Shown here: piece by piece, positions 2,860 through 14,483 of the stretch | Layout: each line of letters starts with the position of its first letter | Position numbering within the stretch: the stretch's first letter is position 1 | Assembly: GCA_013911885.1 (NCBI GenBank) | Contig: JACESI010000001.1 | Span: 1 to 64,000, forward strand | Direction of reading: 5' to 3' | DNA from: Hyphomicrobiales bacterium | GTDB lineage: Bacteria > Pseudomonadota > Alphaproteobacteria > Rhizobiales > JACESI01 | Length of the DNA: 64,000 nt | Notes under the pieces: generated by a model | Told to the model about the DNA's origin: nothing | The model's database searches: none | What the model saw: the letters and a program-made list of their open reading frames with translations, nothing else | Position numbers and translations under genes: made by a program

Positions 2860-3810
2860 TCAAGCCCGCGGATGGGCTTTTTCATAGATTGCGGCAAGGT
2901 GTTCCATGTCGACGCCCGTATAGACCTGCGTCGTTGAGAGGCTCGCATGGCCAAGCAGTTCCTGAATGGTCCTGAGATCGCCGCCGCGGCTGAGAAGATG
3001 GGTCGCGAAGGAATGACGCAGCGCGTGCGGCGTGGCGGTCGGCGGCAGGCCAAGCGCCCAGCGCATCCGCTCCATGGCCTTCTGCACCAGACGCGGATCA
3101 AGCGCGCCTCCGCGCGCGCCGCGAAACAGCGGCCCGTCCTTCGGCAGGGTAATCGGGCATAAATGGATATAGACGGCAATCGCTTCAGAAATAGCAGGCA
3201 AAAGCGGCACGACCCGCTCCTTGCCACCCTTGCCGGTCACCCGCATCGCGCGGTTATGCGGGGCCGGTGCATCACCGCGCTTCAGCGACAAGGCTTCTGA
3301 AATACGCAAGCCCGCGCCATAGCATAGCGTGAGAACGGCTGCGTCACGGGCGGCAATCCACGGTTCTTCTGCGCCCTGATCAGCAAAGGACACAACCCGG
3401 CAAGACTGTATTTCGCTCAGCGGTTTCGGCAGGGTCTTCGGCCGCTTCGGGCTTCGGATCGCGCTGAAGGCGGAGGCATTAATCATGCCGTTGCGTTCAA
3501 GATAGCGAGCGAGGGAGCGGATGCCGGACAGCGACCGTCCGACACTGCGCGCCCCAGCACCACCGGCGCGGCGGTGGGCGAGAAAGGCCCTGAGATCGGC
3601 CGCTTTGAGATGCCCTATATCGCGGATCGTGGGCGACGCGCCAAGATGTCCCGTCAGGAAGGAAAGAAACTGGGTGACATCGCGGTCATAGGCCTCAAGC
3701 GTGTTCGCAGCGACCATGCGCTCGGTGACCAGCGACATCCGCCAGCGCCCGCAGGCGGCGGCAAGATCAGGCGCGGCAACAACGAGAAAAGGCTCTGGTT
3801 TCCGGGTCAT
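2860..3810 (-). CDS. xerC: Tyrosine recombinase XerC
   Basis: Site-specific recombinase that, with XerD, resolves chromosome dimers at dif next to the division septum. It has an N-terminal SAM-like core-binding domain (TLEAYDRDVTQFLSFL) and a C-terminal catalytic domain. Visible active-site elements are Arg in YGAGLRISEALSL, Lys in GKGGKERVVPL, HALRHSFATHLL with His and Arg, and GHASLSTTQVYT with His and the nucleophile Tyr. The chosen ATG (MTRKPEPFLVV, 316 aa) matches the usual family length. The longer ORF start at 3888 would add 26 residues of atypical sequence. It is transcribed divergently from apaG. No associated mobile element or dif-like site was identified here, so this is the housekeeping enzyme. 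Confidence 0.93.
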   Translation of the reverse strand: MTRKPEPFLVVAAPDLAAACGRWRMSLVTERMVAANTLEAYDRDVTQFLSFLTGHLGASPTIRDIGHLKAADLRAFLAHRRAGGAGARSVGRSLSGIRSLARYLERNGMINASAFSAIRSPKRPKTLPKPLSEIQSCRVVSFADQGAEEPWIAARDAAVLTLCYGAGLRISEALSLKRGDAPAPHNRAMRVTGKGGKERVVPLLPAISEAIAVYIHLCPITLPKDGPLFRGARGGALDPRLVQKAMERMRWALGLPPTATPHALRHSFATHLLSRGGDLRTIQELLGHASLSTTQVYTGVDMEHLAAIYEKAHPRA

Positions 3811-3911
3811 TTTATCAGTCTGCCCGATCAAAATTAAGCGGGGATGAATAACCCTTTGAGGAGAGCAAAAGCGATGATAATAAGGCAAAAGTCGAGGGAG
3901 AGACCAGCCGC

Positions 3912-4304
3912 ATGTACCGGGCGATTACTCACAATATCAAAGTTGAAGTCGAGCCTGTCTATCTCGACCATAAGTCTAATCCGGACGAAAAACACTATTT
4001 CTGGGCCTATCGCGTCGAGATTCACAATCTCAGCCAGGTGACGGTTCAACTGCGCGACCGCTACTGGAAAATCGCAGACGGCAACGGCCATATCGAGGAA
4101 GTGCGCGGGGCGGGCGTGGTCGGCGAACAGCCGATACTTCAACCGGGCGAGAGCTTTGAATATACCAGCGGCTGCCCGCTTGCGACGCCGAGCGGCTTCA
4201 TGATGGGCAGTTACACGATGGTGAGCGAGGACGGCGGCGAATTTGACGTCGACATCCCCGCCTTCTCCCTCGACATTCCCGACGAACCCCGCTTGCTGAA
4301 CTGA
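3912..4304 (+). CDS. apaG: ApaG domain protein
   Basis: A 130-residue single-domain ApaG protein with an immunoglobulin-like beta-sandwich. The signature stretches are present: VYLDHKSNPDEKHYFWAYRVEIHNLS, VQLRDRYWKIADGNG, VVGEQPILQPGESFEYTSG and GFMMGSYTMVSEDGGEFDVDIPAF. The E. coli gene name reflects an old link to cobalt and magnesium efflux and to apaH. The biochemical role remains unclear. The start is supported by GAGGGAGAG about 10 nt upstream of the ATG. It lies divergent from xerC and 84 bp before trkH. From memory, apaG often neighbours hslO in rhizobia. Here the two are separated by trkH and the RND pump. Confidence 0.93.
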   Translation: MYRAITHNIKVEVEPVYLDHKSNPDEKHYFWAYRVEIHNLSQVTVQLRDRYWKIADGNGHIEEVRGAGVVGEQPILQPGESFEYTSGCPLATPSGFMMGSYTMVSEDGGEFDVDIPAFSLDIPDEPRLLN

Positions 4305-4388
4305 TCGAGACCATGTGGTTTTCCCGCTATAAGCCTGCAAGGCAAACAAAGACCATACGGGCAAAGGGGATTCGAAAAGGCAATACTT

Positions 4389-5837
4389 GTGATTGACCTG
4401 CGCCCTATCCTTCTGGTGACCGGTCTCCTCGTCGCGATTTTCGGCGTCTCGATGTTTGTTCCCGCCCTTTTCGATCTCGTGCATGGCAACGAAGATTGGC
4501 GTGTGTTCACGGCGTCGGGTCTGATTGTGAGCCTGATCGGCCTCGGCCTCTTTGCCGCCTGCCGGGGGCATAAGGGCGTTTTGAACCTGCGCCAGGTATT
4601 TTTGATGTCCGTGCTGATCTGGGTTGTGCTGAGCGCCGTCAGCGCCTTGCCGCTTTACTGGTCAAGCCTGATCGACACCTACACGGACGCCTTTTTCGAA
4701 TCAATGTCAGGCCTCACCACGACCGGCTCCACGGTGATGGTGAATCTCGATAGCGCACCCCCCGGCATCCTGATCTGGCGCGGCATGCTGCAATGGTTCG
4801 GCGGCCTCGGCATAATTGTCATGGCAGTCTCGATCCTGCCGATGCTTCAGGTCGGCGGCATGCAGCTTTTCCGGGCGGAGGGCTTCGACACGGCGGAAAA
4901 AATTCTGCCGAGCGCCACCCAGATTTCCGGCAGCCTGACCGCCATCTATGTCGGCCTCACCGTGCTCTGCAGCATCCTTCTGATGATGGCGGGCATGACG
5001 CCATTTGATTCTTTCGTTCATGCAATGACGACAATTGCAACCGGCGGCTTCTCGACCCGCGACGCCTCGATCGGCGCCTTCGATAGTGCGCCGATTGATC
5101 TCATCATTGCCGCTTTCATGATTTTGGGGTCGCTGCCCTTTCTGCTTTTCATAAAAATGGCACAGGGCGACCTTCTGGCTCTGACCAAGGATTCCCAGGT
5201 TCGGGCCTTTCTCGGCACACTTGCGGGATTTATCATCCTCGTCACGGCGCTTCAGATCGCCGACGAAAAACATTTCGGCCTCGAGGCCCTGCGCCACGCG
5301 CTTTTCAACGTGGTGTCGATCATGACCGGCACAGGCTTTACGACCAAGGACTACGCAAGCTGGGGCGGGTTCTCATCCGCCATTTTTTTCTTCCTGATGT
5401 TCATTGGCGGCTGCGCTGGATCGACATCCTGCGGCGTCAAGATATTCCGCTGGCAGGTTCTTTTCGAAGACCTCAAGCAGCATGTGAACAGCATCGTCTA
5501 TCCGCATGGGGTCTTTGTCAAACGCTACAATGGCCGTGAATTGCCGGATAAGGTCTCGCTCGCGGTGATGAGTTTCTTCTTTCTCTATATCTCGAGCTTT
5601 GTGGTTCTGGCCGGGCTTCTGAGCCTTACCGGAATGGACAGTGTGTCCGCCCTATCAGGGGCAGCGACAGCAGTTTCCAATGTCGGGCCGGGACTGGGCG
5701 ACATGATCGGCCCGGCAGGCAATTTCGCGGCGGTGAACGACACCGCGAAATGGCTCCTTTCCCTCGGGATGCTCCTTGGCCGTCTGGAATTCTTTACTGT
5801 TCTGGTCCTTCTAATGCCGGCCTTCTGGCGGAGTTGA
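4389..5837 (+). CDS. trkH: Trk-type potassium uptake protein TrkH
   Basis: Inner-membrane K+ translocating subunit of the Trk system, which normally works with the cytoplasmic regulator TrkA (not in this window). The 482 residues are strongly hydrophobic with four pore-loop repeats: MSGLTTTGSTVM, FVHAMTTIATGGFSTRD, VSIMTGTGFTTKDY and SGAATAVSNVGPGLG. Each carries the selectivity-filter TxG/N pattern of the SKT superfamily. Translation begins at GTG (IDLRPILLVTGLL), with an AAAAGG upstream. The 3' end overlaps the convergent RND permease gene by 44 bp, so the last 14 codons of both genes are constrained on both strands. Whether it sits in an operon with apaG is unclear; the 84-bp gap could hold its own promoter. 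Confidence 0.95.
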   Translation: MIDLRPILLVTGLLVAIFGVSMFVPALFDLVHGNEDWRVFTASGLIVSLIGLGLFAACRGHKGVLNLRQVFLMSVLIWVVLSAVSALPLYWSSLIDTYTDAFFESMSGLTTTGSTVMVNLDSAPPGILIWRGMLQWFGGLGIIVMAVSILPMLQVGGMQLFRAEGFDTAEKILPSATQISGSLTAIYVGLTVLCSILLMMAGMTPFDSFVHAMTTIATGGFSTRDASIGAFDSAPIDLIIAAFMILGSLPFLLFIKMAQGDLLALTKDSQVRAFLGTLAGFIILVTALQIADEKHFGLEALRHALFNVVSIMTGTGFTTKDYASWGGFSSAIFFFLMFIGGCAGSTSCGVKIFRWQVLFEDLKQHVNSIVYPHGVFVKRYNGRELPDKVSLAVMSFFFLYISSFVVLAGLLSLTGMDSVSALSGAATAVSNVGPGLGDMIGPAGNFAAVNDTAKWLLSLGMLLGRLEFFTVLVLLMPAFWRS

Positions 5838-8800
5838 AGCTGCCGCCCGGCGTCTTTCCGGGTGCAGTCAGTCTCGCCGCTTTCCCCTCATCTGGTGTTA
5901 TCGTTGCGGTGCCGTAGAATACCACGGACATGAACCCTTTGACATCGCGGCCAATGCCAAGAAGGCTCGGCACCAGAAACAGCACCAGCATGGTTGCATA
6001 GGCAAGCCCGAAGACAATCGTAATCACCATCGGCAGCAGGAATTGCGCCTGCCTGCTCGTCTCGAACATGAGCGGCGTCAGACCACCGATCGTCGAGAGC
6101 GACGTCAGGAGCACGGCCCGCAACCGATCACGACTGGCGCCGATAGCGGCCTCGTCAATACTGTCGCCGAGTTTGAGACGCTCCTGGAAACGGCTCACCA
6201 AAATGAGAGAGTCATTGACAAGAATGCCGGTCAGTCCAAGCATTCCGACAAAGGAAAGGATCGTCAGCTTAAAGCCGAGAAGATAATGGCCGACGACGCC
6301 GCCCACCACGCCAAAAGGAATGATCATCATCACGGCGAGCGGCGCCAGATAGGAGCCGAACACCCAGGCGAGAATGATATAAATCATCGTGAGCGCAAGA
6401 ACGACACCAATCCTGAGATCGGCAAAGGCATCCGCCCGCTCCTTGTCCTTGCCGTCATAGCGATAACTGATGCCATAGCGCGACGTGATCGCGCGAAGGC
6501 TACCGGTCGACTCCATCTCCTCGATCACGTCGAGCGTGCTGGTGATTGCATTGTTGATATCAGCGGTAACCGAAACGGTGAGTTTGCCGTCCTTGCGCTG
6601 AAGGGCGGCAAAACCCTGGCTCTCGCGGATCACGACAACTTCACCGAGAGGCACGAAATTGCCGGCTGGCGTACGGATCTGGAATTCACGCAGCGCGGCC
6701 GTACCCTGCGGCGGCAGATCCTGCTTGATCCTAAGGGTCACCTCATCGTCGCCTTCCGCCATACGCTGGGCGATTGCGCCCTCATAGGCACTGCGCACCT
6801 GACGGCCGACCGCATCGATGGAAAGACCAAGCGTGCGGCCTCGGTCATTGAGATCAAGGGTGATTTCCGGCTTGCCATAGGGCAGATTGTCTTCAACACC
6901 GGATACACCCGGGATAGCGGCAATGAGTTGCACCACTTCGCCCGCTGCCTTTTTAAGAACATCAACCGGCCCATCCTGCAACTGAATGTCAATATCGCGC
7001 CCCGGTGACCCGCCGCGACGCTCCGAAATCGAAAAACTCTTGAGGCCCGGAATATCCGGCACTGCCTTTTTCCATGCCTGGACGATCACTGGCGTGCGGG
7101 TTTTGCGCTTCTCGGAAACCGTGAGGGCCATCGTGATTTCCGCTACATTCTGTCCGCGATTGACCCCCGCCTGACCGTAATTGATCAACACGCTTTCGAT
7201 GAATTTCTCGCCATTGCCGACTTTCGCTTCAAGCGTCTGCGTCGATTGCTCGAGTTCGGCCAGAATTTCAAGCGCACGCGGGCGCGGTATGCCTGTGTTG
7301 AAAACCACATTGCCCGTGATGGACTCTGCCTCAGGCGTCGGGAAGAAACTGAAGCCAATCTTGCCACCCCGCACCATACCGATCGCGCCGACCATGATCG
7401 AGGCAGCACAAAGTGCGACCGTGACATAGCGCCACTTGTAGGAAAGCTTCAGGAGCGCCGTGAACGGATGATCCCGGAAACCGGCAAAACCTGCATCAAA
7501 GAAGCGGCGCACCGGATTTTCCCGCCCGCCAAAGCGCTGGGATCGCCGGGACCGCCGCAAGGACAAGCCATAAAGAATTGCTTCGATCATCCCGCCGACA
7601 ATGAACGCGAAGAGACCGATCGCAACCGGCGTGTAGGGCCCAGGAAGAAGCCCGCCCACCCATTGCGCGATCGGGATTGCCGTCTCAATGAAGAGCGCCA
7701 GCCCTTCAAGCAATCCGTTGAAAACGTGTGAGGCAAGCGTTGAAAGCCACGAAAAAGCAAGGTTGAGGCTCGCCAGAACCGGTGCGAGGAGCAGTTGCAC
7801 AAGATCGAAGAATTTGATCAGGAGCGTTGCGCCGACGCCCGTTGCAGCCACGAAGGAAACCCAGCTCGGCTGGTTCCACCAGTCCGAAAAGACCTCAGCC
7901 GGCGAGGCAAAGCCCGCAACAGCGCCGCCCGCGGTGCGGATAAGATCACCAACCGCCCAGGCATCCGCCTTCTGGCTGACGACGGCAAGCGCCGCGATCA
8001 GAAGCGAGATCGAAAACTGTCGCCAGGGCGACCAGTGGCGTTGCGCCCGCTCAGCAAGGGAATGTGCGAGATGACCGGGCAGGATCAGGAAACATTCGAT
8101 CAGACTAGCGGTCAGCGCGCAGATGACCACGATCGGGATGACACTCATGATTTGGCCTATTGTATCGCCAATGAGAAGGATCGGCCCGAATGCAGCAGCA
8201 GTCGTGAGGCTCGCCGCTACCACCGGCCAGACCATCCGCCCCGCGCCGCGCTCTGCTGCGAGCAGCGCGGAATCGCCGTGCGCAAAGCGGGTCGCGGTAT
8301 GCTCGCCCACCACAATCGCATCATCGACAATGATCCCGAGCATCATGAGAAGCGCAAACAGCGACACCATGTTGATGGATTGTCCGAGAATCAGCATCAC
8401 CGCGAGCGTCGCGGCAATCGCGACAGGAATGCCCGCCGTCACCCAGAAGGCGACCCGGCCATTGAGAAATACGAAAAGCACCGCAATGACGAGCACAAGC
8501 CCGCCAAGACCATTTTTGATCAGGAGTTGAATACGCGCCCGCAGCGCATCCGGGCGGCTCGATTCAGCCGTGATTTCAAGTGTCTTCGGGAAGGTCTGGC
8601 GGGCTTCGGCGATATAGGTTTCGACGATTTCAGACATTTTGAGCGCATCGCTCATTTCCGCCCGGTCGACCTGCAGCGAAATCGCGGGATTGCCATTGAC
8701 GAGGCTGCGCGCCTGGTTCTTATCATAGGCGCGCTCGACCGTGCCGATATCGCCAAGCGTCAGCCGTTCGCCGGTTTCCGCCGCCTGAATCTCCATTTCC

Positions 8801-9561
8801 CGCAGCCGTTTCACGTCGCCGTCCTCGCCGATCGTACGCAATTGCCGGTCAATCGAGCCCTGAAGGTCGCCGGAGGGAAGATCGCGGGTGTTGTCGCCGA
8901 GAACTGTCGCGACGTCGTCAATCGTCATACCAAGCTGGCGAAGCACCGCAGGGGGTATGTCGACATGGACTTCCTGATCGCGCAAACCGGTGAATTTCAC
9001 CTGATCGACACCACGCGCCAGAAGATCGTCACGCATTCGCTTCGCGAAGGCGCGGATGGTCGATTCTGGAAAAGGCCCGTGCAGGGTCACCGTCGCTACC
9101 CGGTCAAAGAAACGGCCGACGGTTATTTCAGGATCTTCAGAATCTTCCGGAAGCGTCTGAATGGCATCAAGCGCCGATTGGATATCGGCCTCCGCTTCCT
9201 TGAGATCCGCCGATTCGGCGTATTCGAGCGTGATCGCCGCGCCGCCTTCGCGGGCAACGGAATCGATCTTTTTCACATCTTCCAGAAAACGCAGTTGCGG
9301 CTCCACAGCGGCCAGAATATTGGCCTCCACATCCTCCGCGCTCGCACCCGGCCAATTGATGTTGACGACAATCCGATCGACGATGAAATTCGGGAAAAAC
9401 TGGGTGTTGAGCTTCTGAGCGGCGAACAATCCGGCGATCAGAAGAACCACCATCAGAAGATTTGCCGCATTCGGATGGCGCGCGAACAGGCGTACCAGAC
9501 TGCCAATTTCGCCGTTCTCATTCGCCCTTTCCGGCTCATTGCTGGTCTCGCGATCGTTCAT
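5794..9561 (-). CDS. RND-family efflux permease with extra transmembrane insert
   Basis: Proton-driven RND permease of the AcrB/HAE-like group, with the membrane-fusion partner encoded 17 nt upstream. TM1 lies at about residues 33-50, the first periplasmic domain at about 51-345, and TM2-6 at about 346-497. TM4 carries the proton-relay pair in GIIVDDAIVVGEH. TM7 starts near 712, followed by the second periplasmic domain and TM8-12. The 1255-residue length exceeds the usual 1020-1050. The excess sits between TM6 and TM7 at about residues 512-675, where the sequence shows roughly four more hydrophobic segments (for example FSISLLIAALAVV and YTPVAIGLFAFIVGGMIEAILYGL) and ends in an Arg-rich cytoplasmic stretch. 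The substrate is unknown. No outer-membrane factor is nearby. It overlaps trkH by 44 bp tail to tail. Confidence 0.93.
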   Translation of the reverse strand: MNDRETSNEPERANENGEIGSLVRLFARHPNAANLLMVVLLIAGLFAAQKLNTQFFPNFIVDRIVVNINWPGASAEDVEANILAAVEPQLRFLEDVKKIDSVAREGGAAITLEYAESADLKEAEADIQSALDAIQTLPEDSEDPEITVGRFFDRVATVTLHGPFPESTIRAFAKRMRDDLLARGVDQVKFTGLRDQEVHVDIPPAVLRQLGMTIDDVATVLGDNTRDLPSGDLQGSIDRQLRTIGEDGDVKRLREMEIQAAETGERLTLGDIGTVERAYDKNQARSLVNGNPAISLQVDRAEMSDALKMSEIVETYIAEARQTFPKTLEITAESSRPDALRARIQLLIKNGLGGLVLVIAVLFVFLNGRVAFWVTAGIPVAIAATLAVMLILGQSINMVSLFALLMMLGIIVDDAIVVGEHTATRFAHGDSALLAAERGAGRMVWPVVAASLTTAAAFGPILLIGDTIGQIMSVIPIVVICALTASLIECFLILPGHLAHSLAERAQRHWSPWRQFSISLLIAALAVVSQKADAWAVGDLIRTAGGAVAGFASPAEVFSDWWNQPSWVSFVAATGVGATLLIKFFDLVQLLLAPVLASLNLAFSWLSTLASHVFNGLLEGLALFIETAIPIAQWVGGLLPGPYTPVAIGLFAFIVGGMIEAILYGLSLRRSRRSQRFGGRENPVRRFFDAGFAGFRDHPFTALLKLSYKWRYVTVALCAASIMVGAIGMVRGGKIGFSFFPTPEAESITGNVVFNTGIPRPRALEILAELEQSTQTLEAKVGNGEKFIESVLINYGQAGVNRGQNVAEITMALTVSEKRKTRTPVIVQAWKKAVPDIPGLKSFSISERRGGSPGRDIDIQLQDGPVDVLKKAAGEVVQLIAAIPGVSGVEDNLPYGKPEITLDLNDRGRTLGLSIDAVGRQVRSAYEGAIAQRMAEGDDEVTLRIKQDLPPQGTAALREFQIRTPAGNFVPLGEVVVIRESQGFAALQRKDGKLTVSVTADINNAITSTLDVIEEMESTGSLRAITSRYGISYRYDGKDKERADAFADLRIGVVLALTMIYIILAWVFGSYLAPLAVMMIIPFGVVGGVVGHYLLGFKLTILSFVGMLGLTGILVNDSLILVSRFQERLKLGDSIDEAAIGASRDRLRAVLLTSLSTIGGLTPLMFETSRQAQFLLPMVITIVFGLAYATMLVLFLVPSLLGIGRDVKGFMSVVFYGTATITPDEGKAARLTAPGKTPGGSFNSARRPALEGPEQ

Positions 9562-9578
9562 GATGTGGTCGCGCTCCC

Positions 9579-11060
9579 TCAGCCGCGGGGCCTGGTTTTC
9601 ACAAGATCTGCCGATTGTTCTGTAACGTCGCTTGGCGCTGCTTTCGCGGCCTTGTCATCGTCGTCGACGCGGCGCACGAGAAGACCAGGCCCCACTTCGG
9701 CAATCTGCGTGATCAGCACCATATCGCCCTCGACAAGACCGCTCCTGATGATGGCATCGCCTCCATCAAAGGCCGCAATATCGACCGGCCGCACGTCAAG
9801 CCTGCTCTCGTCATTCACGACATAGACCACCGGCCCTTCGAATATCGCCGTCTCCGGCAGGCGGAATGTACCCGGAAAGCTGCGGTCGGGAACGGTAACG
9901 CTGACAAAGGCGCCAGGGCGCAAGGCGCCGGCAAGCGCATCTTCATCGATCCGGGCGAAAACTGAGATGCCGCCCCGGTTTGAGGCAATTTCGGCGCCAA
10001 TCCGGTCAATCCTCGCCTTGTATGAATTCTTCGCGCTGCCGACAGACCAGCTGACGGTGACCTCTTTGCCGATCAGGCTTTTCTCGCCATCGATCAGGCG
10101 GCCATATTGACCATCGGAAAGCACGAAACGCGCGTCCAGCGTATCGGCCTGATAAAGCGTGAGGAGCGAGAGGTTTGTCGCGACGGTTTGACCAATCTCG
10201 ACATTGACCGCCTGTACGACGGCATCGAAAGGAGCCATGAGCGTTGTGTTTTGAAGTTCCCGCTCCGCATTGCGCAGGCCAACGCGCAGCCGCTCAATCG
10301 TTGCCTGACGCGCGTCGATCTGGGCCTTCTGGATTGCGATATTCCCGCCGCTTGTTTGAAAAGAAGCCCTTCGCTGGCTCGCGATCAGTTCGCGCTCCTC
10401 GACTTCGCGCAGGGTGAGCGTGTTGGCACGCACGAGACTGCGGGCGCGGGCAAGGTCCGCCTCGGCAATATCAAGCTGTTCACGCGTCCGCTTGAGACCA
10501 GTCTCCTCCATCCCGAGCCGCGCTTCAGTTTCAGAAAGAGCGGCCTCGGCTTCCTTAAGGTTCGCCCGGGCCTCGTCGCGGGCGATCTCATAGGAAAACG
10601 GATTGATTCTGAGAAGGACGTCGCCTTTTTCCAGCCGCGCACCGACGCGCAGATCGGGGTTGACCTCTATCACCTCGCCGCTGACCAGGGCTGTCAGATT
10701 GAGCGTGCGTCCGGCAACAATGTCCCCGAACACCGTGATTTCCGGTCGGTTCTCAGCCGCCTTCGCCACTACGGCTTCAATCGTATAAACCGCCTCGGAA
10801 GGTACCCGCGCTGGGCGCACTTCGCGCGATGCCTCAAGCTGGTTCATGAGAAATGCCGCCCCGACAAGCACAACAGCCATGATTACAAACTGAAGCGCGC
10901 CGCGCGCGGTCAGAACAGCAGCGCGATAGACCTTTTCATTGCGATCAACATAGACGGCGTCATGACGGGACGCCCCCGCCTTTTCCGGACTGCCGGAAAC
11001 TTGCAGGGTGGTTTCTTCCCCCGTCCGTGTGATGTCTTTCGAGGCCGACGTTTCTGTCAT
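9579..11060 (-). CDS. RND efflux periplasmic adaptor (membrane fusion protein)
   Basis: HlyD/AcrA-type adaptor that should link the RND permease encoded just downstream to an outer-membrane channel. It has a cytoplasmic N-terminus of about 55 residues and one membrane anchor (ALQFVIMAVVLVGAAFLM). The split lipoyl/biotinyl-like half motifs flank a long alpha-helical hairpin with heptad character (roughly residues 150-260, for example ANLKEAEAALSETEARLGMEE). A beta-barrel and membrane-proximal domain follow (VTVPDRSFPGTFRLPETAIFEGPVVYVV). It is anchored by a TM helix rather than by a lipobox. The two genes form an operon. A TATACT -10-like hexamer lies on the minus strand at 11116-11121 in the 162-bp leader. 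The substrate cannot be told from sequence. Confidence 0.92.
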   Translation of the reverse strand: MTETSASKDITRTGEETTLQVSGSPEKAGASRHDAVYVDRNEKVYRAAVLTARGALQFVIMAVVLVGAAFLMNQLEASREVRPARVPSEAVYTIEAVVAKAAENRPEITVFGDIVAGRTLNLTALVSGEVIEVNPDLRVGARLEKGDVLLRINPFSYEIARDEARANLKEAEAALSETEARLGMEETGLKRTREQLDIAEADLARARSLVRANTLTLREVEERELIASQRRASFQTSGGNIAIQKAQIDARQATIERLRVGLRNAERELQNTTLMAPFDAVVQAVNVEIGQTVATNLSLLTLYQADTLDARFVLSDGQYGRLIDGEKSLIGKEVTVSWSVGSAKNSYKARIDRIGAEIASNRGGISVFARIDEDALAGALRPGAFVSVTVPDRSFPGTFRLPETAIFEGPVVYVVNDESRLDVRPVDIAAFDGGDAIIRSGLVEGDMVLITQIAEVGPGLLVRRVDDDDKAAKAAPSDVTEQSADLVKTRPRG

Positions 11061-11222
11061 CCGGTCGCTTTCAGCAATAAGGAACCCGCATCAACCAAAC
11101 TCCTTGGACAGTCCCAGTATATAGGAGGACGCGCGCCAGAAGAAACATCGAAAAAGATCAAACATGCAGCAAAGGCAAATCAAGGTCAAAATCAGGATCA
11201 GCGCCGCCGCATGGCGTCAGTT

Positions 11223-12215
11223 TCATCCGAGCAGCTCGTCCTGGGTAACCGTATAATCCGTGCCACAAAATTCGCACTGGATGGCAATTTTCCCGTCCTC
11301 AACGACTTCCTGCAATTCCGCCTCGCTCATCGAGCGCAGAAGCGCCCAGATCTTTTCACCGGAACAGGAACATTGATCCATGATCCGTTGCGACGGGAAC
11401 AGTCTGAGATCCTGTTCATGAAACAGGCGGAAGGCAAGGCGCTCCGCGGAAATGTCAGGATCTGTCAGTTCGTCGTCCCGGATCGTTGCAAAGAGGCTCT
11501 GCGCCTCAATCCATGCATTGTCTTCATCAACAAAGTGGCCAAGGTCACCATCGCCACCGGGAAGGTCGCGGGTCTTTATCCGCTCTTCGGATTCGGGAAG
11601 GAACTGGATCAGCGCGCCGCCCGCGCGCCAGTGGCTGCGGGTCACGCCTGCATCATCCGCCTTGACGAGCTCGCCAACCCCCAGCCGCACCCGCGTCGGG
11701 ATCTGTTCGGACTGGAGGAAATAGCGGTGCGCCACCTCTTCAAGGCTTTTGCCGTCGAGCGGGACCATGCCCTGATAGCGATGCATATACTGGCCCTGAT
11801 CGACGGTCATGGCCATGATGCCACTGCCAAGCAGTTGCCCGGGGGCGGTTTCACCGCGCTCGATTGCGCCGGCAAGCGCCATCTCGTCAAAGCGCGCATG
11901 CGCGCGAATCTGTCCCGGCGTGCGGAAATCAACGACCAGAAGGCTCACCGGCCCGTCGGTCTGGGTCTGAACGATCAGCTGCCCGTCGAATTTGAGCGAC
12001 GTGCCGAGAAGGACGGTGAGCACCACCATTTCGCCAAGAAGCCGCGCAACCGGCGGCGGATAATCATGGCGCTGGATGATCTGATCGAGCGCCGGGCCCA
12101 TCTGCACCGAACGCCCTCTCGTATCGAGCCGCTCGACGACGAACGGCACGACCGCATCATCGCCCGCAGGCGTGATGGCGCTGATATCGACAGCAATGTC
12201 CTGCGGCGACTTCAT
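11223..12215 (-). CDS. hslO: Redox-regulated chaperone Hsp33
   Basis: Cytoplasmic holdase that binds unfolding proteins during oxidative and heat stress. It is switched on when four zinc-binding cysteines form disulfides. The N-terminal substrate-binding core is recognisable (PPPVARLLGEMVVLTVLLGTSLKFDGQLIVQTQTDGPVSLLVVDFR, LLGSGIMAMTVDQG). The C-terminal switch carries CSCSGEKI and CEFCGTDY, that is CxC and CxxC as in the family. The 330-residue length is slightly long, as in rhizobial members. An AAGGG ribosome site precedes the ATG. It follows argF by 51 bp on the same strand, so argD-argF-hslO is probably one transcription unit. This trio is common in Hyphomicrobiales, from memory. Confidence 0.96.
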   Translation of the reverse strand: MKSPQDIAVDISAITPAGDDAVVPFVVERLDTRGRSVQMGPALDQIIQRHDYPPPVARLLGEMVVLTVLLGTSLKFDGQLIVQTQTDGPVSLLVVDFRTPGQIRAHARFDEMALAGAIERGETAPGQLLGSGIMAMTVDQGQYMHRYQGMVPLDGKSLEEVAHRYFLQSEQIPTRVRLGVGELVKADDAGVTRSHWRAGGALIQFLPESEERIKTRDLPGGDGDLGHFVDEDNAWIEAQSLFATIRDDELTDPDISAERLAFRLFHEQDLRLFPSQRIMDQCSCSGEKIWALLRSMSEAELQEVVEDGKIAIQCEFCGTDYTVTQDELLG

Positions 12216-12266
12216 CTGATCCCTTTGCCTGATGGATATTTCAACAAAATGTCAACGTCCGAGATG

Positions 12267-13202
12267 TCAATGTCCGAGGCACCAGGCGAGGATGCTCTTC
12301 TGTGCATGAAGGCGATTTTCCGCCTCATCGAAAACCACCGATTGCGGGCCATCCATGACCGCCGCGGTGACCTCTTCTTCGCGATGCGCGGGAAGGCAAT
12401 GCATGAAAATCGCATCCGCTTTCGCCGCCGCCATCAGCCGGTTGTTAACCTGATAGGGCATCAGCAGGTTATGCCTGCGTTCTTTCTGATCATCGCCCAT
12501 GGAAACAAACGTATCGGTCATCACGCAATCCGCGCCCGCAACCGCCTCAAAAGGATCGCTGGTGACGCTGAGTCGCGTGCCTTCGGCCTTCGCCCAGGCG
12601 AGAATTTTCGCAGTCGGGCTGAGTTCCGGCGGCGTTGCGACGGCAAGCTCGAAATCGAAACGTTGTGCTGCGTGCACGAGCGATGTCAGAACATTGTTGC
12701 CATCCCCGGTCCAGGCGAGTTTGCGCCCGGCAATCGGCCCGCAATGCTCTTCAAACGTCATCACATCAGCCATGATCTGGCAGGGGTGGGAATCATCGGT
12801 AAGGCCGTTGATAACTGGCACGCTCGCAGCCTCCGCCAGTTCCATAAGGCGGCTGTGTTCGGTGGTGCGGATCATGATGGCATCGACATAGCGCGACAGA
12901 ACACGCGCCGTATCGCCGATCGTCTCGCCGCGCCCAAGCTGCATCTCCGTGCCGGTCAGATTGATCGTCTCGCCGCCAAGTTCGCGCATCCCGACATCAA
13001 ACGAGACGCGCGTACGGGTAGAAGGCTTGTCGAAAATCATCGCAAGCATCTTGTTTTTCAGGGGCTGAAAAGCGCCGCGGCCCTCCTGTCGCCAGTCCTT
13101 TTTCATCGTATGGGCGCGATCGATGATCCGACGCAAAGTCGCGGGATCATGATCCCTGATATCGAGAAAATGGCGGGGCAATTCTGTCAGCGCTGTTGTC
13201 AT
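12267..13202 (-). CDS. argF: Ornithine carbamoyltransferase
   Basis: Catalyses ornithine plus carbamoyl phosphate to citrulline in arginine synthesis, in the cytoplasm, normally as a trimer. The carbamoyl-phosphate loop [17 protein letters not shown], the motif [15 protein letters not shown], the ornithine-binding region around [12 protein letters not shown], and the catalytic [42 protein letters not shown] are all present. The ATG at 13202 ([15 protein letters not shown], 311 aa) is preferred over the ORF start at 13232 because the ten extra residues are not family-like. It lies 33 nt downstream of argD and is likely co-transcribed with it, giving consecutive steps of the arginine pathway. 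Confidence 0.97.
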
Positions 13203-13235
13203 GGAATTTCTTCGGCACCTCGGGCGGAACACCCG

Positions 13236-14420
13236 TCATGCCGCCTTCATGCGCACCGCCTGACAGGCGGCTTCAAGACTATTGAGGGCGGCATCGATTT
13301 CGTCCTCGCTCACAATCAGCGGCGGAAGCACGCGCATGATGTCCGTGCCCGCGGGAACCGTCAGGAGCTTATGATCACGCGCGGCGGCGATGAAATCCAT
13401 GTTCGAGCCGCGGGTCTTGAGACCAAGAAGAAGGCCCTCGCCCCGAACTTCCTCGAGTACATCCGCGTTGGTATCAACGAGACCGGCAAGTTTCTGCTTC
13501 ATCAAGAGGCCCTTGCGCTTGACCTCATCAAGGAAGCCTTCCGCCAGAACCACATCGAGTACGGCACAGCCAACCGCCATGGCAAGCGGGTTTCCGCCAT
13601 AGGTGGTGCCGTGAATGCCGGGTGTTATGCCGGTCGAGGCTTCTTCATTGGCAAGGCAGACACCGACCGGGAACCCGCCGCCAATGCCCTTGGCGACCGC
13701 CATCAGGTCTGGCGCGATGCCCGCTGTCTCATGATAAAAAAGCGTGCCTGTCCGGCCGACGCCGCACTGCACCTCGTCGAAAATCAGAAGAAGGCCATGC
13801 GCATCGCACAATTCCCGCAGCCCGCGCAGGCATTGCGGCGGCACCGCGCGGATGCCCCCTTCACCCTGTATGGGCTCAATCAGAATGGCCGCTGTCCGCT
13901 CATTAATCGCGGCTTGCAGCGCCTCATGATCGCCAAACGGCACCTGGTCGAAACCATCCATATGCGGGCCGAACCCTTCGAGATATTTCTCCTTGCCGCC
14001 GGCTGCGATGGTTGCAAGCGTGCGGCCATGGAAAGCGCCTTCAAAAGTGATGATCCTGTTGCGCTCGACATCGCCCTTGCGCCAGTGATAGCGGCGCGCG
14101 GTCTTGATCGCGCATTCCATCGCCTCCGCGCCGGAATTCACAAAAAACGCCCGGTCTGCGAAGGTTGCTGCGGTCAGCCGGTCGGCGAGCCTGTTCTGTT
14201 CGGCGATGTCATAAAGATTGGAAAGATGCCAGATACCTTCCGCTTGTTTCTGCAGGGCCTGCACGAGGTGCGGATGGGCATGGCCGAGGGCGTTGACCGC
14301 GATGCCCGAGCCAAAATCGAGATAGCGTTCGCCTTTATCGGTCGTGAGCCACGCGCCTTTGCCGCCGACAAAAGTAAGCGGTATGCGATTATACGCATTA
14401 TAGAGAGCCGGCGATACCAT
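13236..14420 (-). CDS. argD: Acetylornithine aminotransferase
   Basis: PLP-dependent class-III aminotransferase that makes N-acetylornithine in arginine synthesis; related enzymes also serve lysine synthesis. Visible features are the cofactor region [18 protein letters not shown], the FEGAFHGRT loop, [13 protein letters not shown] with the PLP-binding Asp, and [13 protein letters not shown] with the Schiff-base Lys. The 394-residue length is normal. The ORF track starts at a TTG (14432), but the ATG at 14420 has a GGAGA six bases upstream and begins [15 protein letters not shown]. First gene of the argD-argF-hslO group. Its leader contains a promoter-like pair and an unusually early terminator-like hairpin, listed separately. 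Confidence 0.96.
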
Positions 14421-14483
14421 CGTTGTCTCCAACAGATAAGAAGGCCGTGTGGCAGGGATAAACCTTCGCCTTGCCCCGGCATA

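Follow-up and report, generated by a model that had tools for sequence, protein, structure and literature searches.

An added membrane hairpin predicted at the TM6-TM7 junction of AcrB-type RND permeases in a clade of Hyphomicrobiales

Hyphomicrobiales is a large order of bacteria mainly of soil and sea, and RND permeases of the HAE type are usually described with twelve helices. A member of this order encodes an RND permease of 1255 aa that departs from the twelve-helix plan: two or more extra helices are predicted at its TM6-TM7 junction. The locus raises the question of what was added, how it was gained and what it may do for the pump. The permease gene (P0001; positions 5794..9561, minus strand) lies in the window, by which we mean the whole stretch of 64,000 nucleotides that was analysed, positions 1 to 64,000 of contig JACESI010000001.1.

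The open reading frame matched Pfam ACR_tran in two blocks covering both RND halves (E 1e-148, 497 bits), leaving residues ~510-684 uncovered. Both halves were also matched by the solved relatives AcrD, MexK, MdtB, AcrB and OqxB, and the fold was AcrB-like, with Foldseek matches to AcrD, AcrB and OqxB at a TM-score on the target of up to 0.87. The aspartate pair of the TM4 proton relay is kept, D413 and D414 being invariant in 20 orthologs. In contrast to AcrD and AcrB, which carry a lysine in TM10, P0001 has Asn1116 at the aligned position, an asparagine invariant across the family; with this replacement the proton relay may differ, although the lysine is not needed for membership in the wider family. 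Among the curated NCBIfam RND subfamilies none scored above its cut-off, the best being RND_permease_2 (402 bits vs 1250). By sequence and fold P0001 is an ordinary AcrB-type (HAE) RND permease apart from the stretch between its halves, and it is expected to be a proton-driven exporter. It resembles the HAE permeases AcrB, AcrD, MexB, MexK, AdeJ, OqxB and MdtB in both halves, in fold, in the TM4 Asp pair and in having an MFP partner, whereas all of these lack its membrane insert of ~172 aa between TM6 and helix I-alpha.

The partner gene (P0002; 9579..11060, minus strand) lies directly upstream of the permease gene, as it does in nearly all orthologs. It encodes a periplasmic adaptor (MFP) of 493 aa that scored 152 bits against TIGR01730 RND_mfp, over the cut-off, and has an N-terminal TM anchor with a hydropathy peak near residue 54. 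No outer-membrane channel gene adjoins the permease/MFP pair; the OEP genes found in the genome lie elsewhere, one on C7 next to another RND gene and one on C15 at a distance from the permease locus. The pump would be driven by protons and would work with the MFP encoded upstream and presumably with an unlinked TolC-like channel.

A preliminary description had placed an extra membrane block at the cytoplasmic TM6-TM7 junction, at positions 7540-8030. The ortholog alignment, the gap in the ACR_tran match and the excess of ~172 aa all bear this out, and the coordinates are accurate, corresponding to residues 511-674. Between fixed anchors (residues 490-720 of P0001) the TM6-TM7 span measured 231 aa, whereas 58-60 aa separate the anchors in most orthologs without the insert. 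The ~172 residues that most orthologs lack lie at ~506-680, and with its Arg-rich exit the inserted block takes in residues ~506-686 (7504..8046, minus strand). As three other genomes of the same genus carry 169-170 extra residues at the same place and in frame, an assembly or frameshift artefact was ruled out. Elsewhere in Hyphomicrobiales the excess was mostly 78-101 aa (Hoeflea, Oricola, Stappia and others), with a few members at 121-133 or 157 aa. Over residues 512-675 no Pfam domain was matched at E up to 1.

The block opens with a WSxWRQ motif, within which the first added helix, TMa, begins (residues 512-531, including R514; 7969..8028, minus strand; AF2 and hydropathy). It is followed by a genus-specific middle (7648..7968, minus strand), in which short helices and a loop (532-576) precede a hydrophobic to amphipathic segment of ~62 aa (577-638). 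The second added helix, TMb, was drawn by AF2 over residues 644-676 (7534..7632, minus strand), of which ~644-664 would form the membrane part, and it contains E660 (codon 7582-7584). The Arg-rich exit noted earlier is real, spanning residues 669-686, and leads into a conserved amphipathic connector with the motif FRRxFDxGFxxFRDxPF (AF2 helix 683-709; 7435..7515, minus strand; alignment and AF2), which by position matches helix I-alpha of AcrB (described in PMC8277102).

The earlier reading had counted roughly four helices; here the helix number was judged from AlphaFold models and hydropathy. In an Oricola ortholog that carries the hairpin only, AlphaFold drew the added part confidently as a pair of helices (502-523 and 548-578), most of which had a block pLDDT of ~81-89. 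The model of the window protein (residues 18-1212) likewise contained the two outer added helices, its core being excellent, TMa at pLDDT ~55-73 and TMb at 81-83 over most of its length. The middle reached ~51-69 and was drawn as a single 62-residue helix over 577-638; as the inputs were the window sequence and the sampled loci, the AlphaFold alignment held no rows from the same genus for the expansion specific to it. The middle was uniformly and marginally hydrophobic (genus-mean KD ~1.2-1.7, moment 0.2-0.3). With such a middle and its low pLDDT, two added membrane helices, TMa at ~512-531 and TMb at ~644-664, are well supported by the models, and four are possible in the window protein. Two of the four helices first counted thus stand, and the other two fall in the uncertain segment 577-638; the predicted topology of the middle is uncertain between none, one or two pairs of membrane passes. 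The even number of added helices foreseen at the outset is required for an intact second half.

To trace the history of the insert, a tree of 112 permeases was built with FastTree (local support) after removal of the insert columns. It gathered 38 insert-bearing sequences into one group, so the insert defines a subfamily as had been supposed, and forms without it, found across Proteobacteria, lay outside. Three further insert-bearing sequences also fell outside the group, one with 60 aa (L170) and a pair with 83-84 aa (L168/L169, family f21), and therefore further gains or losses are needed. The ancestral form, as read from orthologs in conserved synteny, is a permease of ~1045 aa without insert; the predicted two-helix hairpin of ~80-95 aa arose in a subclade of Hyphomicrobiales that includes Hoeflea, Oricola and Stappia. 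It was enlarged in three lineages, most of all in the genus of the window (169-172 aa, roughly double the length). On the tree, inserts of more than 105 aa need three changes, in the window's genus, in the f13/f25 lineages and in a Rhizobiaceae MAG (L049). A common origin of the three expansions was rejected, as the window sequence showed no similarity to f13 or f25 above shuffles; similarity between f13 and f25 was marginal, 57 of 500 shuffles scoring as high. The insert of the Rhizobiaceae MAG (7468-8190) is 157 aa long and shows four hydrophobic peaks, of which the fourth is weak; a tandem hairpin duplication in it was unsupported (score 22 vs shuffle mean 24.7).

The insert evolves about three times faster than the core and yet retains fixed points. 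Within the genus its segments shared 31-66% identity, against 71-79% for the core halves, the genus-specific middle being at 31-48%, and the insert showed ~2.5-3 times as much nonsynonymous change as the core, synonymous sites being saturated. R514 was found in 38 of 38 sequences of the main clade and in 38 of the 41 that bear an insert; for E660 the counts were 38/38 and 40/41. The helix positions put both residues toward the cytoplasmic side of TMa and TMb, where they may pair.

We propose that a Hyphomicrobiales subclade gained the TMa-TMb hairpin between TM6 and I-alpha, which would bring the permease to at least 14 membrane helices, and that the window's genus then added ~85 residues between TMa and TMb. 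The hairpin is joined to TM6 and I-alpha and would have to sit at the margin of the transmembrane domain. It would pack on the periphery close to TM6/TM7, where a salt bridge between R514 and E660, toward the cytoplasmic face, might hold it in place. It could act as a covalently tethered accessory, tuning conformational cycling or the lateral access of lipophilic substrates. Precedents for such a role exist in other systems. The 14-helix MFS transporters of the DHA2 family (EmrB, QacA, NorC, Rv1410) carry a TMA/TMB hairpin in the cytoplasmic TM6-TM7 loop, between pseudo-symmetric halves as in P0001; their fold is unrelated to the RND fold and the likeness is architectural only. Deletion of TMA/TMB in Rv1410 abolishes transport, the protein not being unfolded (PMC10576003). 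The effect of AcrZ on AcrB is modulatory and concerns part of the substrates (PMC7267776). As an extra membrane helix that touches and modulates the RND transmembrane domain, AcrZ is comparable to the role proposed for the P0001 hairpin; AcrZ, however, is a separate protein of 49 aa with one helix, whereas the hairpin of P0001 is covalent. By analogy, the most likely reading appears to be a hairpin tethered at the periphery and modulating the transmembrane domain in the manner of TMA/TMB or AcrZ, to which we give about an even chance. In its favour we count the single clade of 38 sequences and its synteny with insert-free orthologs, the conserved R514 and E660 within a fast-evolving insert, the Oricola hairpin and retention of the insert: of 298 genomes sampled from the order, 56 have a full-span match to its profile. 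The low-confidence middle counts against it, as do precedents that belong to other folds or to a separate protein.

The fast evolution of the insert would be expected if the TM6-TM7 linker were simply permissive and hairpins were gained and enlarged near-neutrally, with little effect on transport. The several expansions of length, which lack mutual similarity, point the same way, as does a second RND permease encoded in the genome (G000:C15:173791-177126; L047 5777-9310). This protein of 1177 aa has 25-29% identity to P0001 and a two-helix hairpin at the same TM6-TM7 junction, but its hairpin lacks the Glu signature. Between the anchors its orthologs ranged from 69 aa (no hairpin) to 125-153 aa (hairpin). 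A shared origin of the two hairpins was unsupported (hhalign probability 1.8%), and therefore a membrane hairpin has entered this junction on two or more occasions, in separate RND families. Near-neutral insertion does not readily account for the invariance of R514 and E660 in the main clade or for a length kept at 169-172 aa in the genus, and we regard it as unlikely.

The hairpin might instead be where the TM-anchored MFP, or some other partner in the membrane, docks, which would stabilise assembly of the pump. The N-terminal TM helix of the MFP and the adjacency of the two genes are in keeping with this, and in EmrB-type pumps, too, an MFP works with a transporter of 14 helices (PMC13139468); the assembly element reported for EmrB, however, is a periplasmic helix bundle and not TMA/TMB (PMC13139468). 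The preliminary description had suggested that MFP partners might co-vary with the insert. No gross co-variation in length or TM anchor was seen, a TM-anchored MFP of the same kind lying upstream of both Hyphomicrobiales forms, and docking is accordingly a rather improbable explanation. A four-helix membrane module with its own function, such as binding a lipid or a second substrate, along the lines of the preliminary description, is very unlikely in the window's genus: its ~60 further residues are of conserved length and continuous, moderate hydrophobicity and the Rhizobiaceae insert has its four peaks, but the middle segment lacks a clear turn or flanking charges, is drawn by AF2 as one helix at low pLDDT and shares only 33-48% identity within the genus.

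More broadly, and quite tentatively, RND pumps may have repeatedly evolved a functional form of at least 14 helices through a regulatory or substrate-gating hairpin at TM6-TM7, which would parallel, as yet undescribed, the DHA2 expansion of MFS pumps; in the main clade the conserved Arg-Glu pair would be its signature. Profile searches and the open-access literature yielded no described HAE group with this insert, and no RND permease with a TM6-TM7 insert was found in that literature, which is weak evidence of absence. As the insert clade was inherited vertically beside insert-free orthologs in the same operon, it offers a natural experiment on how peripheral helices, such as AcrZ in trans, affect RND transport. 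The linker helices of DHA2 transporters, which one pump or more cannot do without, provide a parallel that opens the question of the hairpin to direct test.

Forms with and without the insert have the gene order argD-argF-hslO-MFP-RND in common, and TrkH and apaG often flank its opposite side; this indicates that the gene was passed on vertically and gained the insert along the way. In the window this order, with TrkH-apaG, spans 2860-14432, and it recurred across much of the Hyphomicrobiales sample and in Sneathiellales and Minwuiaceae MAGs; given this spread, the operon has the look of a long-standing core locus of the chromosome. The TrkH gene (plus strand, 4389-5837) is convergent with that of the permease, the two sharing 44 bases at window positions 5794-5837.
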